From an uncultured Bacteroidota bacterium (GTDB lineage: Bacteria; Bacteroidota; Bacteroidia; 2-12-FULL-35-15): a stretch of DNA of 38,744 nucleotides. Under the pieces are notes generated by a model. That model had not been told where the DNA came from, did no database searches, and saw only the letters and a program-made list of their open reading frames with translations. Shown here one piece after another: positions 13,472-38,540 of this stretch (its first letter is position 1; each line of letters starts with the position of its first letter). The stretch lies in NCBI GenBank assembly GCA_903911435.1, contig CAIWDF010000043.1:1-38744 (forward strand). The letters are read 5' to 3'. Made by a program: the position numbers and the translations under genes.

Positions 13472-13800
13472 AGTTCCACACGGAACGACCCAAAACCTAA
13501 TTAGGAAAACATCCGTTTCACGCGGAACGGACCAAAACCTAATTAGGAAAACATCCGTTTCACGCGGAACGAACCAAAACCTAATTAGGAAAACATCCGT
13601 TTCACGCGGAACGACCCAAAACCTAATTAGGAAAACATCCGTTTCACGCGGAACGGACTAAAACCTAATTAGGAAAACATCCGTTTCACGCGGAACGGAC
13701 TAAAACCTAATTAGAAAACCATCCATTCCACACGAAACGGACTAAAACCTAATTAGGAAAACATTCGTTTCACGCAAAACGGAGCAAAACCTAATTCGGA
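13472..13800. repeat. 42-bp tandem repeat array, 8 units, palindromic
   Basis: Eight units in exact 42-bp register; the CGCGGAAC core or its variants start at 13479, 13521, 13563, 13605, 13647, 13689, 13731 and 13773. Most units carry two dyads: the perfect palindrome CCTAATTAGG and a hairpin CCGTTTC-ACGC-GGAACGG (one G-U pair as RNA). Central units are near-identical; outer units (first, seventh, eighth) are diverged. The array lies in an ~800-bp non-coding stretch (13229-14032) between divergent genes; the remainder of that stretch is AT-rich and carries only the two promoter candidates listed. No coding frame fits the array. The spacers needed for a CRISPR are absent. Confidence 0.93.
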
Positions 13801-14007
13801 ATTTCCACAAAAGGGGAATTTTAGGTATACATATATATAAGTATAGTTTGGAGATTTAGATTTCGAACCATTCAAATGTTTTTTCACCTATAAAACCAAA
13901 AGAGGCAACAAATTGGTGTTTTAGCATCTTCATTTTGCTGGGGTAATCACCAATATAGGCATAAAAGTTTTTTGTGAAGAAATAAATCAAGCATATATAT
14001 AATAAGC

Positions 14008-32459: not shown

Positions 32460-33005
32460 TTATTCCTTGTTAAATTTATCATCCTTCCAATTTTTGGGAT
32501 TATTGACGATATAATTTGAAATGGTTAGGTATGATTTTTCGTTTCGTATGATGTGTTCGTAATAATTGCGTTGCCAAACCTGCGGGGGCGGAAAATTTTC
32601 CGCCCTATTATTGCGAAACCATTTGGTTACCCCAATTTTATATCCGCGAACAATTGACCCGATGGAACGGGGAATTATTTTTTGAAATTCGTGATGGGTA
32701 CGCAGGGGTTGAATATATTCAACCCCTACGTGGGGCGATTTCAATTCAATTATCCCATGTACATGGTTGGGCATAATAATGTGTTCATGTAAAATGGCAT
32801 TTGGAAAATGGTTTGGTATATCCAACCAACATTGGTTTGCAATTTTTCCCGCATCATTCAAAATCATCTTACCATCCACAATTCCACCAAACAAATGATT
32901 ACGGGCATCACAACATATGGTTATAAAATACAAACCCTCCTTCGAATAATCGTATTCTTTTAATCGAACGGATTTGCGATGATGGATATTGGGATTGTAA
33001 TTCAT
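32460..33005 (-). CDS. REP-associated tyrosine transposase (RAYT, Y1-type HUH nuclease)
   Basis: 181 residues. The family N-terminus is clear (HHRKSVRLKEYDYSKEGLYFITICC), then LHEHIIMPNHVHGIIEL with the HUH pair His81/His83, IPRSIGSIVRGYKIGVTKWFRNN, and the catalytic Tyr148/149 in WQRNYYEHIIRNEKSYLTISNYIVNNP. The protein nicks single-stranded REP hairpins and is held responsible for spreading REP elements. Two segments (about 95-107 and 134-143) are encoded by perfect DNA palindromes. The ATG overlaps the stop of a 57-codon gene (ATGA), so translation is coupled. REP-like hairpins flank the unit on both sides. Confidence 0.93.
   Translation of the reverse strand: MNYNPNIHHRKSVRLKEYDYSKEGLYFITICCDARNHLFGGIVDGKMILNDAGKIANQCWLDIPNHFPNAILHEHIIMPNHVHGIIELKSPHVGVEYIQPLRTHHEFQKIIPRSIGSIVRGYKIGVTKWFRNNRAENFPPPQVWQRNYYEHIIRNEKSYLTISNYIVNNPKNWKDDKFNKE
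32586..32605. repeat. 20-bp perfect palindrome inside the RAYT gene
   Basis: GGGCGG-AAAATTTT-CCGCCC, encoding the RAENFPPP segment between the conserved TKWFRNN and VWQRNYYEH motifs, where relatives vary in length. Confidence 0.9.
32704..32727. repeat. 24-bp perfect palindrome inside the RAYT gene
   Basis: AGGGGTTGAATA followed directly by its reverse complement; it encodes the VEYIQPL segment after the HUH motif, another variable region of the family. Confidence 0.9.
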
Positions 33006-33175
33006 TCGATACCCTCGGCACTAGTTCCCGTGTCAATTTGATGAATACCTGAAGAAATTTCAAATTTATAAGTATCACAAGATTTAAGACAGAAGAGAGG
33101 TTCTTTATCAAAGGTAATGTTTCCCTGATAACCATTCAAGTCAATTGACAATTCAAATAATTCAGCTGTTTTCAT
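33002..33175 (-). CDS. Small protein, 57 aa, coupled to the RAYT gene
   Basis: Open frame MKTAELFELSIDLNGYQGNI... to ...DTGTSAEGIE with a normal amino-acid mix and three beta-prone stretches (FELSIDL, YQGNITF, YKFEISSGIHQID). It starts 27 nt after the stop of the PC4/HTH gene and its TGA overlaps the RAYT ATG (ATGA). That arrangement, more than its length, supports it as a real gene. No family recognised. It could be a regulator or antagonist of the transposase, but this is speculation. Confidence 0.6.
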   Translation of the reverse strand: MKTAELFELSIDLNGYQGNITFDKEPLFCLKSCDTYKFEISSGIHQIDTGTSAEGIE

Positions 33176-33202
33176 TTTGTTTAATTTTTTCTTAATTTTT
33201 TT

Positions 33203-33634
33203 CTATCTATTACGTCTGAATCTAAAAACTTTTTTTTTCTTAGGAGCTTCTTCGTTAATAATAGCAATACCTTTATTGCGTAAAACTTGTTCTATTATTT
33301 CTTCGGTAGTATCAAATTGTATAGCTAGGTCTTTTATTCGAATGTTTCCTTTCAAGTATCTTTTTACAATCTCTGAATATCTTTCTGGGCTTAAATAATT
33401 TTTTGGTTTTTTTTTAATTTTTGGCAATTGGCCTCTGTATTCATTTAATACACTAATTAAATCATCAATAATGGTTGGATTTATTTTTATTTTTTGAACT
33501 TCAGTTTTGTTGTTGTTCAACTGGATAGTTTGCTGAATAGCTATATAAAGCTCTCCGTTCTCGTGTTTTACTAAATCAAGAAGAAAGGTGCTCTTCTCAT
33601 ATTCCAATAATGTTGTTTTTATTTCTGTATCCAT
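33203..33634 (-). CDS. PC4-like ssDNA-binding domain fused to an HTH-like domain
   Basis: 143 residues. Residues ~10-68 (YEKSTFLLDLVKHENGELYIAIQQTIQ...VQKIKINPTIIDDLISVLNEY) fit the strand-strand-strand-strand-helix pattern of Bacteroidota PC4/p15-like proteins, which bind single-stranded DNA. Residues ~78-125 (YLSPERYSEIVKRYLKGNIRIKDLAIQFDTTEEIIEQVLRNKGI) look like a tri-helical DNA-binding domain (homeodomain/sigma-r4 type). The basic tail KKKKVFRFRRNR may contact nucleic acid. It heads the three-gene unit with the small gene and the RAYT gene; a role as its regulator or DNA partner is inference. Confidence 0.75.
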   Translation of the reverse strand: MDTEIKTTLLEYEKSTFLLDLVKHENGELYIAIQQTIQLNNNKTEVQKIKINPTIIDDLISVLNEYRGQLPKIKKKPKNYLSPERYSEIVKRYLKGNIRIKDLAIQFDTTEEIIEQVLRNKGIAIINEEAPKKKKVFRFRRNR

Positions 33635-33671
33635 TTGAAAAGATTTTAATTTCCCAAAGTTGTTTGATATA

Positions 33672-33679
33672 CAAAATTA
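33672..33679 (-). promoter_or_regulatory. Candidate -7 element (TAATTTTG) for the PC4/RAYT unit
   Basis: Exact TAnnTTTG match on the minus strand 37 nt before ATG 33634; no clear -33 box. Confidence 0.45.
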
Positions 33680-33752
33680 ATAAATCTTTGTTAAAAGTAG
33701 CCTCTGACTAGGTTAGATTTAACAAATTCTCTCGACTTGATTGTTTTTACAA

Positions 33753-33795
33753 AAGGCGAGACGCCTTCTTAATAGTGACGTAGCGGGACGCTACG
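33753..33795. repeat. REP-like double hairpin
   Basis: AAGGCG-aga-CGCCTT (33753-33767) and CGTAGCG-gga-CGCTACG (33779-33795). The first shares the GGCGAGACGCC core with the REPIN at 32279-32412. The pair separates the RAYT unit from the caspase operon and may act as terminator for the latter (16 bp past its stop). Confidence 0.8.
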
Positions 33796-33811
33796 CAAAA
33801 CACTAATGAGG

Positions 33812-34756
33812 CTAATTTTCTATTCTGTTATTTTCCGCACATAATATATTTAACCATTTATTTACTTCGAAATTGAATATCCAGTTACTTCTGTATTGTC
33901 TATGGTCTTTATCATGAGCAATAATCTCAATGATTACTTTGTCAAAAGATTCAAAATTCATTTTTCTACCAATATCAAATATTTCACTTGTCAAACTTTG
34001 CATTCCTTTCAACCTTTGTGATATAGTTTTGCTGTAGTTGGTATATGAATTGTTAAAAGTAATATTAATTATTATTGCCTTTGCATCCGCTCCATTATTG
34101 TATAATGAGAAGTATAAATGTTCCCATAAATAATACCACTCAGTCCCAAAATTAAACAGTACATGAAATGCTGGTTTTATTCTTTCAATTTCTTGATTCT
34201 TTTCAATTGTTGCGATAAAATTATTTTCAATCTCTCTTTTTCGCTTATCCTCTTCTATCGTTTTTAATTCAATTTCTGTTTGAAGCATCTCTTCATTTTG
34301 ATTATGTAATTTCATTAATTGCTCAACTATGTTTTCCAACCTTGTAGTGACTTCATCAATTTGTTGAACAAATAATTTTGTCTGCTTTTCAGATTCAGAC
34401 TGTAAAGTAGAAATTTGTTTATCAGTTAATTCCTGGAATGCAAAGATTTGCTCTTTTGTACTTATTCTTATTTGATCTATTTGGGTTTTAGTAGATAAAG
34501 ATATTGCAGAAATTTGTTTTAAACTTTCTTCTTTGTAAACAGCAATTTGCTCTGATGCACTTTTATTAGCTTCATAAAAGGTTTGAAGCATTATTAGCAC
34601 CATTGCAATAAGGAAAATAATAATGTATCCTATTTGCATATAAGAATTGAACCAACTTTCTTTTTGGTTATAGCATAAGAAAAAGCTATACCAAATTACA
34701 ATAAGCACAAGGACAAACCAAGATTGAATCCATTTGTTTTTAAATTTTTCTTTCAT
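33812..34756 (-). CDS. Membrane protein: two N-terminal helices, long coiled coil, C-terminal domain
   Basis: 314 residues. Two membrane helices are predicted (about 12-30 WFVLVLIVIWYSFFLC; 42-60 IGYIIIFLIAMVLIMLQTF), joined by a short loop. Then comes a coiled coil (~65-195: EQIAVYKEESLKQISAIS, EKQTKLFVQQIDEVTTRLENIVEQL) and a beta-rich C-terminal domain (IKPAFHVLFNFGTEWYYLWEHLYFSLYNNGADAKAIIINITFNN). A basic run KRKR (171-174) sits between coiled coil and end domain. It is the last gene of the caspase operon, 4 nt after the gene before it. No family recognised. As the only coiled-coil membrane protein beside proteases, it is a candidate effector or substrate (inference). Confidence 0.82.
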   Translation of the reverse strand: MKEKFKNKWIQSWFVLVLIVIWYSFFLCYNQKESWFNSYMQIGYIIIFLIAMVLIMLQTFYEANKSASEQIAVYKEESLKQISAISLSTKTQIDQIRISTKEQIFAFQELTDKQISTLQSESEKQTKLFVQQIDEVTTRLENIVEQLMKLHNQNEEMLQTEIELKTIEEDKRKREIENNFIATIEKNQEIERIKPAFHVLFNFGTEWYYLWEHLYFSLYNNGADAKAIIINITFNNSYTNYSKTISQRLKGMQSLTSEIFDIGRKMNFESFDKVIIEIIAHDKDHRQYRSNWIFNFEVNKWLNILCAENNRIEN

Positions 34757-34760
34757 TCAA

Positions 34761-35588
34761 TTAAATTTTATCCTCAATCTTTTTAATTATACCAGGAATC
34801 AATTTTTCACTTACTCCGCTTATTAAACATATTAAATAAGTAAGAATACCAGCATCAGGACTACTTAAATTTCCAAATACTATCTTTGAGTTTAAAGCAA
34901 GGTAAACTATAAAACCACTAAAAATACCGTATGTAATTCTTAAAATCCCCTCCCATGTATAAGAGGAATCACCGATCGATGGCTCCAGTTCTAAAGTTTT
35001 AGAACGTATCATTAAAAAAACAAACCCACCTATTCCTCCTGCTAAAGAATAAAAACAATATTGAAATAATTTATGGCAGCAAGTTAATGGAGTTATGCAA
35101 TTGCCATTAACAAGCCAAAGAACTACCTCTATTATTAGGATAATTATTGTTGTTATTAATGCTGAAGTCAGAAGTTTTTTTCTGCCATTAGCGTTTAATA
35201 ACTGCTCCGCGGAATCCAATATTTTCAAAGCATTTTTATCACTTTGTTCATCAAGAATCCTACCCATACTCTCACCCAAAAGTCTTCTAAAGGCATGCAA
35301 TTGTTGCCCTTCCAGCTTTCCATTTGAAAGTTCTTCAAGCAAACCTATCTTATTTACGATTAGTCCAAATTTTTCCAGAAAATTATCTGCTTCAAAATCT
35401 TCATTGTAGGACCACTCGACACACATATCTTGATCCAAATACACAATAAATGAATTTGAGGAAATAATTAATGTTTTTATTGTCTTACCCAATGAAGGTT
35501 CATAATCGCCTTCAATAAAGCCGGAATAGTCTGGGACTTCTCTTTTTTTAAAGACTTCTTCCAAATTACTGTTTTCATCTATTTTCAT
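34761..35588 (-). CDS. Membrane protein with cytosolic N-terminal domain and four membrane helices
   Basis: 275 residues. The N-terminal ~135 residues are soluble (KTLIISSNSFIVYLDQDMCVEWSYNEDF; LLEELSNGKLEGQQLHAFRRLLGESMGRILDEQSDKNALKILDSAEQLL). Four hydrophobic segments follow: LLTSALITTIIILIIEVVLWLV, YCFYSLAGGIGGFVFLMI, ITYGIFSGFIVYLALN and ILTYLICLISGVSEKLIPGII. Two are Gly-rich (SLAGGIGGFVF, YGIFSGFIV). No family recognised. It starts 12 nt after the caspase-like gene 35601-36332. It may serve as pore, anchor or sensor in the caspase operon (inference). Confidence 0.82.
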   Translation of the reverse strand: MKIDENSNLEEVFKKREVPDYSGFIEGDYEPSLGKTIKTLIISSNSFIVYLDQDMCVEWSYNEDFEADNFLEKFGLIVNKIGLLEELSNGKLEGQQLHAFRRLLGESMGRILDEQSDKNALKILDSAEQLLNANGRKKLLTSALITTIIILIIEVVLWLVNGNCITPLTCCHKLFQYCFYSLAGGIGGFVFLMIRSKTLELEPSIGDSSYTWEGILRITYGIFSGFIVYLALNSKIVFGNLSSPDAGILTYLICLISGVSEKLIPGIIKKIEDKI

Positions 35589-35600
35589 TTCTACATTGTT

Positions 35601-36332
35601 TTAATGTTTACTTATCGCAAAGGGCGGGAAGGTTAATCTTCTTATTTGTCCTGCCATTTCAGGAGTTTGATTTGTGATAAACGTTTCCTTTATTATTAAC
35701 TTAGATTTTTCAACAGCAACATTAAGTGTTAATACTCCTTTTGTTTTTTCATCCTCCCACCACCTTTCTCCTGCTTTTATAAAGGAGTAACTAAAAACCC
35801 CACCTAAAAATTCATTGTCACCTGATGTTCCATTTGATTGAGTGGAAAATACTAATATAATTCCTTCCGGAGTTTTTATTATTGCTTCATCAAAAAGTGC
35901 ACGAGTACTTCTTTCTTCATCACCGGAAAAATTACTATACTTTTCTTCCATTAAAAAATCAGGCTTGTGAGGATGAAACTCACGACAAGCATCTATTACA
36001 ATAGTTTGCTTTTTTGAAGGAGAAACTAATTTTCCAATAGACAAGTCAACATCCTTTAAACAAACATAATCCTCAACATTATATGTACTTATAAATCCTT
36101 GTCCAGAAAAAACGATAAAAGTATAATCAGATTCCGATTCTTGAATTGCTTTAATTACATCTGAAGAAGTTGGGTCTTTTAAAATACTAATTTCATTTGG
36201 ATGCCATTCGCCACCAGCCTTGCTTGTTAAGAAATTGTGGTAATTTTCAAGATCAACCGAAACCCCACTTAGAAAATCTAAATTTCTATACCCTCCTGAA
36301 TTTCCAATTATAATTGCTTTTCTTTTTATCAT
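35601..36332 (-). CDS. Caspase-like (peptidase C14) protein with catalytic His replaced by Gln
   Basis: 243 residues, one C14 domain. It has the first strand KRKAIIIGNSGGYRNLDFLSGV, then DYTFIVFSGQGF where the two upstream paralogues have S/T-GHG (Gln78 for His), and the nucleophile strand TIVIDACREF (Cys116). The TSGDNEFLGGVFSYSFIKAGERWW segment and C-terminal PPFAISKH are kept. The Gln codon is CAA, one base from a His codon, and the frame is otherwise intact, so it is not a decayed gene. It may be a regulatory pseudo-protease or use an altered dyad. It starts 1 nt after the active-site-complete paralogue upstream. Confidence 0.9.
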   Translation of the reverse strand: MIKRKAIIIGNSGGYRNLDFLSGVSVDLENYHNFLTSKAGGEWHPNEISILKDPTSSDVIKAIQESESDYTFIVFSGQGFISTYNVEDYVCLKDVDLSIGKLVSPSKKQTIVIDACREFHPHKPDFLMEEKYSNFSGDEERSTRALFDEAIIKTPEGIILVFSTQSNGTSGDNEFLGGVFSYSFIKAGERWWEDEKTKGVLTLNVAVEKSKLIIKETFITNQTPEMAGQIRRLTFPPFAISKH

Positions 36333-36333
36333 T

Positions 36334-37116
36334 CTATTGATTGAGTAAATTATTTGTTATTGCAAATGGTGCAGTTTTCCTTATAGAATCTGGGATTGTC
36401 ATATAAGTAGGGATTTGACTTGTAAATGGATCATTTTCCAATGTTGCTATTGTTTTATTTACTGCTTCCCTAATAGTCATCCAATATTTTTCTTTGTTAA
36501 TCTTAGAAAATTTTATTCCTTCCTTCATTAATGCAGTAGAAAAAACTCCGCCCAATGAAGGGTTATCACCGGAGGTTTGCCCTACTGAACAAGCATAACC
36601 TCTAAATTGCCCATAATCAGCTTTTGAAAGAGCGTAATCAAACTTATTTCTTGCATTTCTTATAATTCTTTTTTGAGCTTCTGATAATCTTTGCACCTGT
36701 CCTCCTTTCTCAAAGTGAGAAGAGACATCACCAAAAGCACCTGCAATTTCGCTAATACTCTCTTCAGTTCGACAACAATCCAAAATTAATGATTGTTTCA
36801 ATGAGTTGGTTTTTAATTCGGTCTCGCAAATATAATTTCCATCAACACAAATATAAGTTAATCCATCAGCTTGGTTAATAAAGCCATGACCAGAAAACAC
36901 AACAAACGAATAGTCTGTATTGCATTGCCTGATTGCATTTATGATTGTTTGTCTCCCTTTATTATGGATAATTTCAATTTCAAAATCGTACCATGCTCCC
37001 CCAACATTATTTTTTAAGTATCGCGGATAATTATTCAAATCCCTATTTACACCTGATAAAAATGTTGTAGCATTGTATCCTGTATTATTTCCAATAATAA
37101 TTGCTTTTCTTGTCAT
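36334..37116 (-). CDS. Caspase-like protease (peptidase C14), dyad intact
   Basis: 260 residues from ATG 37116 (MTRKAIIIGNN); the frame extends to an ATG at 37149 inside the previous gene, but its paralogue begins at the same MTRKAIII. The C14 core: YSFVVFSGHGF (His77), LILDCCRTEE (Cys115 in the DCC position of bacterial caspases) and the TSGDNPSLGGVFSTALMKEG segment. The C-terminal KTAPFAIT motif is shared by all three caspases here. There is no signal peptide, so it is cytoplasmic. Bacterial orthocaspases mostly cut after Arg/Lys; specificity here is not readable. It begins 1 nt after the stop of the first caspase gene. Confidence 0.94.
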   Translation of the reverse strand: MTRKAIIIGNNTGYNATTFLSGVNRDLNNYPRYLKNNVGGAWYDFEIEIIHNKGRQTIINAIRQCNTDYSFVVFSGHGFINQADGLTYICVDGNYICETELKTNSLKQSLILDCCRTEESISEIAGAFGDVSSHFEKGGQVQRLSEAQKRIIRNARNKFDYALSKADYGQFRGYACSVGQTSGDNPSLGGVFSTALMKEGIKFSKINKEKYWMTIREAVNKTIATLENDPFTSQIPTYMTIPDSIRKTAPFAITNNLLNQ

Positions 37117-37117
37117 T

Positions 37118-37918
37118 TTAGAAACCTGTTTTATCATTAGTAATGGCAAAAGGAGCAGTTAAATTCATTCTCTGGGGAATTAATTTATAGGTAGGCACTT
37201 GTTTTGTAAAGGGATCTTTTGCTAATTCATTTTTTGTAAGAATGACAGCTTCTTGAATCGTCAACCAATATCTTTCTTGATTTACACTTGAAAACTTTAA
37301 ACCTTCTTTCATTAAAGCAGTGGAAAAAACACCTCCTGAAGAAGGATTGTCACCAGACGTTTGATCAATCAGGCAAGCATATCCTCTAAACTGTCCATTT
37401 GTAGTCACACCAAGTGCTGCATCAAATTTTTCACGTGGCAGATTTATTTTTCTTAGAGGAGATGATAATGTAGCAGACAGTGCAACGGCTTTATTCATCA
37501 TAGAGGCTGTACCGCTGAAGTTATAGCTTTCATTAGCACTTTCTACTTGACGACAACAATCCAAAATTAATGACTGTTTCTGAGAACTAGTTATTAATTC
37601 ATCTTCACTAATTTCCCCACCATTAACACAGATATAAGTCAATCCATCTCTTGATTTTGTATAGCCATGCCCTGTAAAAACTACAAACGAGTAATCTGCG
37701 TGACAATTTCTTATCGCGTTGAGAATTGTTTGTCTTCCTTGGTTATGTAGTATTTCAACTTCAGTTAAATTAGGAAGGTTTTCCCAATAATACCATCGCC
37801 CGCCTCCATCACTTGTTAAGTACCTTTGATAATTTTCTAAATCCTTAGTCACTCCACTTAAAAATGTTGGAGCATTAAGCCCTGTGTTGTTTCCAATAAT
37901 AATTGCTTTTCTTGTCAT
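37118..37918 (-). CDS. Caspase-like protease (peptidase C14), dyad intact, first gene of operon
   Basis: 266 residues from ATG 37918 (MTRKAIIIGNN). The open frame runs on to 38122, but the extra 68 residues have no similarity to the paralogues and include a non-coding-like stretch, so I reject that start. The C14 core: YSFVVFTGHGY (His84), LILDCCRQVE (Cys122), QTSGDNPSSGGVFSTALMKEG and LTAPFAIT near the end. It is about 25 residues longer than the third paralogue in the middle (ANESYNFSGTASMMNKAVALSATLSS). It is closest to the 36334-37116 gene, pointing to a tandem duplication. Confidence 0.93.
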   Translation of the reverse strand: MTRKAIIIGNNTGLNAPTFLSGVTKDLENYQRYLTSDGGGRWYYWENLPNLTEVEILHNQGRQTILNAIRNCHADYSFVVFTGHGYTKSRDGLTYICVNGGEISEDELITSSQKQSLILDCCRQVESANESYNFSGTASMMNKAVALSATLSSPLRKINLPREKFDAALGVTTNGQFRGYACLIDQTSGDNPSSGGVFSTALMKEGLKFSSVNQERYWLTIQEAVILTKNELAKDPFTKQVPTYKLIPQRMNLTAPFAITNDKTGF

Positions 37919-38276
37919 ATTATATATTTTTTTATTCTTATTCCCACCCCACAAAACCACCCTCTCACCTTTAAGTAAGAATCGTTTGGCGAAGATAATG
38001 AGAAGATTTAAGATTTGCAATGATGTTTTCGGGCGCAAAATCAAGTTTTGAGTTTTTACGGTGGTTAGCGGAGGAAAGAAAATTGAAAAATACCGAAATT
38101 CGGTAGATGAAAAAAAGAGCAAAAAGGGGGCAAAAATGAAAAACTCGGTGTACTAAAAATGGAAACGATTGATTTTTTTAGCAATCATTCGTCCTAAAAA
38201 AGGGTTGAACTTGTATTCAAATAAAAGGACAGTGAAGGAAAAAAAATCACGAATACTTGGTTCGGAAGTATGCTTA
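37919..38276. other. Upstream region of the caspase operon, non-coding
   Basis: AT-rich leader with no convincing gene. No TAnnTTTG box was found within 200 bp upstream of ATG 37918; CATTTTTG (minus strand, near 38138-38131) has one mismatch. The best structural feature is the odd palindrome at 38091-38105. Confidence 0.5.
38091..38105. promoter_or_regulatory. 15-bp dyad (TACCGAA-a-TTCGGTA) upstream of the caspase operon
   Basis: Perfect 7-bp inverted repeat around one central base, about 175 bp before the first caspase ATG. Its size and symmetry suit a repressor operator; no regulator gene is adjacent, so this is tentative. Confidence 0.35.
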
Positions 38277-38540
38277 CAAAATCATTTTGTTTGGTTACAA
38301 TTATATTTTGTTCGGTTACAAAATCATTTTGTTCGGTTACAAAATGATTCATGATGGATACTTTTTTATTTTGTTTGGTTACAAAATGATTCATGATGGA
38401 TACTTTTTATTTTTGTTTGGTTACAAAATCTCATTGTTTGGTTACAAAATGATTCATGATGGATACTTTTTTATTTTGTTCGGTTACAAAATCATTTAGT
38501 TTGGTTACAAAATGTCATTGTTTGGTTACAAAATCATTTC
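38277..38540. repeat. 21-bp phased palindromic repeat array
   Basis: GGTTACAA cores begin at 38293, 38314, 38335, 38377, 38419, 38440, 38482, 38503 and 38524; all spacings are 21 or 42 bp. Each type A unit is a hairpin ATTTTGT-tYggtt-ACAAAAT. The three skipped slots (about 38356, 38398, 38461) hold a second unit type, GATTCATGATGGATAC followed by a T-tract. Neither strand gives a continuous frame through the array (TGA interrupts the minus frame, TAG the plus frame). It sits ~360-610 bp upstream of the first caspase start. Confidence 0.92.

Follow-up and report, generated by a model that had tools for sequence, protein, structure and literature searches.

Pseudo-orthocaspases, i.e. prokaryotic caspase homologues of the C14 family in which one or both residues of the His-Cys dyad are substituted, form clades that occur mostly in Alphaproteobacteria and Cyanobacteria and often carry extra domains; the Gln-Cys type is reported to be common in Rhizobiales, and pseudo-variants make up 10 of 1078 caspase homologues in Bacteroidetes (PMC6426788). 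Operons containing multiple caspase genes are already known, Bacteroidetes included (PMC3501461). In the MoxR-vWA conflict systems, ~70% of the caspases in the effector position are inactive; such copies are almost invariably found together with another caspase and an alpha/beta-hydrolase and have been proposed to be dominant-negative regulators or peptide binders (PMC7159879). A two-gene system consisting of EACC1 and a caspase (NF047832) has also been described (PMC7159879).

The window analysed here, which is the entire 38,744-nt contig C43 of a draft Bacteroidota genome (312 contigs), contains three compact caspase genes on the minus strand, namely casp1 (37118..37918, 266 aa), casp2 (36334..37116, 260 aa), and casp3 (35601..36332, 243 aa), followed on the same strand by genes for a 275-aa multi-TM membrane protein (34761..35588) and a 314-aa protein (33812..34756). 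Because the intergenic gaps are only 1, 1, 12, and 4 nt, in this order, the five genes are likely to be on one transcript; the co-transcription of casp3 asserted in the preliminary description is therefore probable, as judged from spacing. The start codons of casp2 (ATG at 37116) and casp1 (ATG at 37918) were selected by alignment among the paralogues. Both proteins are of the active type (GHG and DCCR) and matched Pfam PF00656 with E-values of 1.3e-14 (casp2) and 5.4e-13 (casp1, using a longer ORF). The 275-aa protein was recognized by hydropathy and by BLASTP matches to neighbours of caspases elsewhere (see below); its predicted structure (pLDDT 45) was too poor for a fold search. The 314-aa protein, assigned as the last operon gene product on account of the 4-nt gap, has, according to hydropathy, two TM segments at its N-terminus and an extended region resembling a coiled coil, and family profile searches with it yielded nothing above the cut-off. 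No Pfam match to MoxR ATPase or vWA was found in the seven proteins encoded at 32460-38122, nor was a CD-NTase found among the operon genes; the contig ends ~0.8 kb upstream of the casp1 start. A transposase-like gene (Y1_Tnp, below cut-off) is located near the operon end (32460-33005). Tandem arrays with a 42-bp period are present upstream of this operon (38274-38539) and of the orthologous operon described below (L051:1475-1838), and a further tandem array was found elsewhere in the window (13473-13801).

The casp3 ORF starts with ATG, contains no internal stop codon, and scored 50.1 bits (E-value, 3.9e-13) against PF00656 (Peptidase_C14), for which the curated cut-off is 21.4, in agreement with the earlier statement that the rest of the gene is intact. 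In the alignment of the three in-operon caspases, the region of the dyad His reads FSGQGF in casp3 and FSGHGF and FTGHGY in the paralogues, and the region of the dyad Cys reads IDACR in casp3 and LDCCR in casp1 and casp2. Gln78 of casp3, which occupies the catalytic His column, is encoded by CAA (36099..36101, minus strand), whereas both paralogues have CAT (His) at this position, a difference of one transversion; Cys116, the retained catalytic Cys (DACR), is encoded by TGT (35985..35987, minus strand). The replacement of His by Gln with retention of Cys, noted at the outset, was thus borne out by the paralogue alignment and the codons. With one dyad residue substituted, casp3 falls within the definition of a pseudo-orthocaspase (PMC6426788). 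The predicted structure of casp3 (pLDDT 41) was too poor for use, and a profile search of solved structures with the caspases retrieved metacaspases only, all weakly matched.

Searches of samples of the genus, class, and phylum and of plasmids were used to gather a family of compact caspases (about 240-280 aa), which have in common the dyad regions, a GG motif at about residue 40, and, at the C-terminus, the motif Q-x-P ... PFA. Every relative recovered by these searches has both His and Cys. His and Cys are both kept in 15 of the 17 rows of the family alignment, the exceptions being casp3 and its orthologue casp_B; among 14 columns that are invariant in the outgroup rows, casp3 lacks only the His. 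Within the genus of the window, only one other of the genomes searched contains a compact caspase, which is of the active type.

The orthologue was identified in a Bacteroidales metagenome-assembled genome, a contig of which (L012) was found, by scanning with the three paralogues, to end in a truncated caspase gene. A search of the rest of this genome recovered the other end of the truncated gene (casp_A) together with the following gene (casp_B). The two contig ends, which were compared and not joined, overlap by 237 bp with one homopolymer indel, and casp_A can therefore be regarded as one gene; it carries the active-type motifs TGHG and DCCR. casp_B (L050:7103-7843) lies directly after casp_A, overlaps its end by 4 nt, also scores above the C14 profile cut-off, as do casp1 and casp2, and is 49% identical to casp3, of which it is the sole known orthologue. 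casp3 and casp_B were grouped apart from casp1, casp2, and casp_A in all of 200 bootstrap trees of the grouped rows. casp_B has kept the His (SGHG), but its Cys region reads DSRR, with Arg (CGC) in place of the catalytic Cys. Neither casp3 (Gln-Cys) nor casp_B (His-Arg) therefore has the His-Cys dyad by which active C14 proteases are recognized. The gene downstream differs between the two loci: the membrane protein gene follows casp3, whereas casp_B is followed by a gene for a 427-aa protein with a weak match to alpha/beta-hydrolases (E-value 0.003, below the cut-off). The L050 locus contains a single active caspase. The post-Cys linker is longest in the active caspases encoded beside a pseudo-copy (window 36334-37918 and L050:7840-8595), at 42-47 residues vs 26-37 residues in the others, a comparison involving three related sequences, too few for a claim.

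Further casp3 orthologues were sought in viral contigs and phages, where none was found, and in 40 additional genomes of the family to which the casp_B genome belongs, where there was no second orthologue. The plasmid search likewise detected no casp3 orthologue, only distant active-type caspases of Leptospira and one weak, partial match in Pseudanabaena, and a scan of genome contigs with casp3 alone gave no match.

Judging from these sequences, both lineages have a caspase with an incomplete predicted dyad at the equivalent place in the operon, with a different residue substituted in each. Gln, or at least a non-His residue, had been expected to be conserved among orthologues, but casp_B has His and is devoid of Cys instead; what appears to be conserved is the absence of a complete dyad and not Gln itself. 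Since the surrounding family consists of active His-Cys proteins, two independent losses, one in each lineage, represent the simplest history. casp3 was picked for being broken, and only casp_B provides an independent test, amounting to one data point; a random orthologue would be expected to be broken ~1% of the time, given that none of the 15 other rows is broken and that the frequency in the literature is 10/1078.

Both genes have the characteristics of genes under constraint. Each of casp3 and casp_B retains 12 of the 13 columns that are invariant in the His-Cys set and misses only its own dyad residue. By the NG86 method, dN/dS was 0.42/1.76 (about 0.24) for the casp3-casp_B pair, compared with 0.51/1.69 for casp1-casp_A and 0.49/2.44 for casp2-casp_A (0.20-0.30), although these ratios are rough because dS is near saturation, and they are averaged over all the time since the split. 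The difference at second codon positions, which is independent of dS, was 0.26 for the pseudo pair vs 0.33-0.34 for the active pairs. When neutral drift from casp3 was simulated (300 runs), 1% of the frames were still open once divergence had reached 13%, and all were closed from 18% onward, whereas the observed divergence between casp3 and casp_B is 39%. The distance from casp3 to the outgroups does not exceed that of casp1 or casp2, and its terminal branch is not long. These values indicate that neither pseudo-copy is decaying and that both have been under purifying selection; the loss of catalysis itself may be recent. The idea of a selected in-operon pseudo-protease, proposed in the preliminary description, thus held with regard to the dyad-broken orthologue at the equivalent position and the lack of accelerated decay, but not with regard to conservation of Gln. 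Of the observations that had been named as contrary to it, a His in the orthologue was found in casp_B, but decay confined to casp3 was not.

We consider it reasonably probable, on the evidence of the sequences, that casp3 is a dead caspase which selection has preserved because it serves as a binding partner within a membrane module under caspase control. The same data may be viewed as relaxed constraint, in which the last caspase of the array was redundant and drift abolished catalysis in the two lineages separately, with decay yet to come. Each loss concerns one residue and is explicable by a single base change, the residue lost differs between the lineages, and the losses may be recent, all of which would fit drift. 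However, the one family-invariant residue that each copy has lost belongs to the dyad, and their divergence and dN/dS match those of the active paralogues. Redundancy is also less likely at the L050 locus, because only one active caspase is present there. Relaxed constraint is accordingly regarded as unlikely, although it is the alternative to which we give most weight.

It is considerably less probable that casp3 still cleaves substrates as a slow or specialized protease, with Gln positioning a water molecule or Cys using another base. That casp3 retains its Cys, the Asp before it, and the glycines on both sides of the His position would be compatible with such an activity, but the His-Cys dyad is held to be a prerequisite for activity (PMC6426788), and a function shared with casp_B, which is without Cys, cannot need Cys chemistry. 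Least credible of all is a base-calling or assembly error at Gln78 in a normal active caspase: the change is a single transversion (CAT to CAA) in a draft genome, but casp_B, from an independent assembly, is also dyad-broken, so that dyad codons would have to have been affected by error twice, independently.

Compact caspases are accompanied by membrane proteins in other genomes as well. Homologues of the 275-aa membrane protein directly precede compact caspases at three loci in three other genomes (L033, L034, and L035; BLASTP E-values of 4e-24 to the caspase neighbour in L035 and 1e-19 to that in L033), and more distant members of this membrane protein family occur without a caspase. The membrane protein-caspase pairs at L033:6600-8202 and L034:1857-3459, found in two genomes of one genus, are identical at the protein level and adjoin genes that by eye resemble those for integrases, ParA, and antirestriction proteins, suggesting a recent transfer on a mobile element. 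In a second conserved pair, found in two Bacteroidota genomes and on Leptospira plasmids, a 1-TM protein of about 150-160 aa, belonging to a family distinct from that of the 275-aa protein, is encoded 1-4 nt ahead of a compact caspase (L027:4166-5375, L028:4807-6037, and L010:5544-6738); a Shedu nuclease gene is present nearby on one related plasmid. A CBASS-like locus (L032:6115-8776) encodes a CD-NTase (SMODS and AGS_C), SLATT_4, and a compact caspase in that order, and at L031:4280-6926 a compact caspase gene is convergent with a CD-NTase gene and a small gene after it. As read from gene neighbourhoods, compact caspases are repeatedly paired with a membrane protein or a hydrolase. Because the relatives adjoin small membrane proteins, including in CBASS loci, a role of the casp3 operon in defence or cell death is a reasonable inference.

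casp3 resembles the known pseudo-orthocaspases in being of the C14 p20 type with a replaced dyad residue, but it differs from them in that it is compact, is encoded in a tight operon with active caspases, resides in Bacteroidota, and has an orthologue broken at the other residue (PMC6426788). The MoxR-vWA systems share with these loci the presence of an inactive caspase beside another one and, at L050, of a hydrolase-like gene after the pair (a weak match), whereas the caspases studied here are free-standing, single-domain proteins that are not fused, and neither MoxR nor vWA was present among the scanned proteins (PMC7159879). The EACC1-caspase system is similar in that a small membrane protein is encoded beside the caspase, but casp3 (22 bits) and casp2 (25 bits) fall far short of the NF047832 cut-off of 140 and are hence not EACC1-associated caspases; the caspases of this operon also lack a fused C-terminal effector and have other membrane partners (PMC7159879). 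Pseudo-orthocaspases, including those of the Gln-Cys type, and inactive caspases beside active ones are therefore already known, and what is new here is that the caspases are compact, stand in tandem, and are encoded with membrane proteins, and that the two orthologues are broken at different residues of the dyad.

Proteolysis by a Cys-His dyad should not be the function conserved between casp_B, which is without Cys, and casp3, which is without His. Both proteins keep the fold core, the Asp before the position of the Cys, and the glycines on either side of the His position, and the likeliest remaining function would thus be to bind a partner or a cleavage segment. The natural partners of casp3 are likeliest to be the adjacent active caspases or their target. 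With casp1 and casp2 as presumptive working proteases, casp3, given its retained fold core, Asp-x-Cys-Arg loop, and His-flanking glycines, would most likely pair with them or hold the cleavage segment of a shared target; it may thus act as a dimer partner, a substrate decoy, or a regulator, the roles suggested in the preliminary description. In this way it may set the threshold at which casp1 and casp2 fire, inhibition and licensing both being compatible with the available data. The target or output would most likely be a co-encoded membrane protein (34761-35588 or 33812-34756), and the outcome may be membrane damage or membrane-tethered signalling upon infection or stress. Complementation of the dyad in trans within a heterodimer was also considered and rejected, as the dyad His and Cys of caspases lie within the same chain.

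In animals, the caspase homologue cFLIP is catalytically dead and is retained alongside caspase-8 as its regulator. casp3 may be compared with it as a dead homologue beside active ones and a possible regulator, but it has no death-effector domains and the sequences are very distant, so that the comparison is an analogy only. More tentatively, and with less confidence than in the binding role of casp3 itself, the operon may be an immune or cell-death module in which a dedicated dead caspase gates the active ones, catalysis having been lost independently in each lineage and the outputs being exchangeable (a membrane protein at one locus and a hydrolase-like protein at the other), as a prokaryotic parallel to caspase-8 and cFLIP. 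The compact size of the caspases (about 245 aa each, in one operon) makes them directly testable in a laboratory host, and, as the dyad is broken at a different residue in each orthologue, catalysis can be told apart from the conserved function with no need for engineering. If this reading is true, the pairing of active and dead caspases would be a recurring means of control that arose in bacteria as well as in animals.
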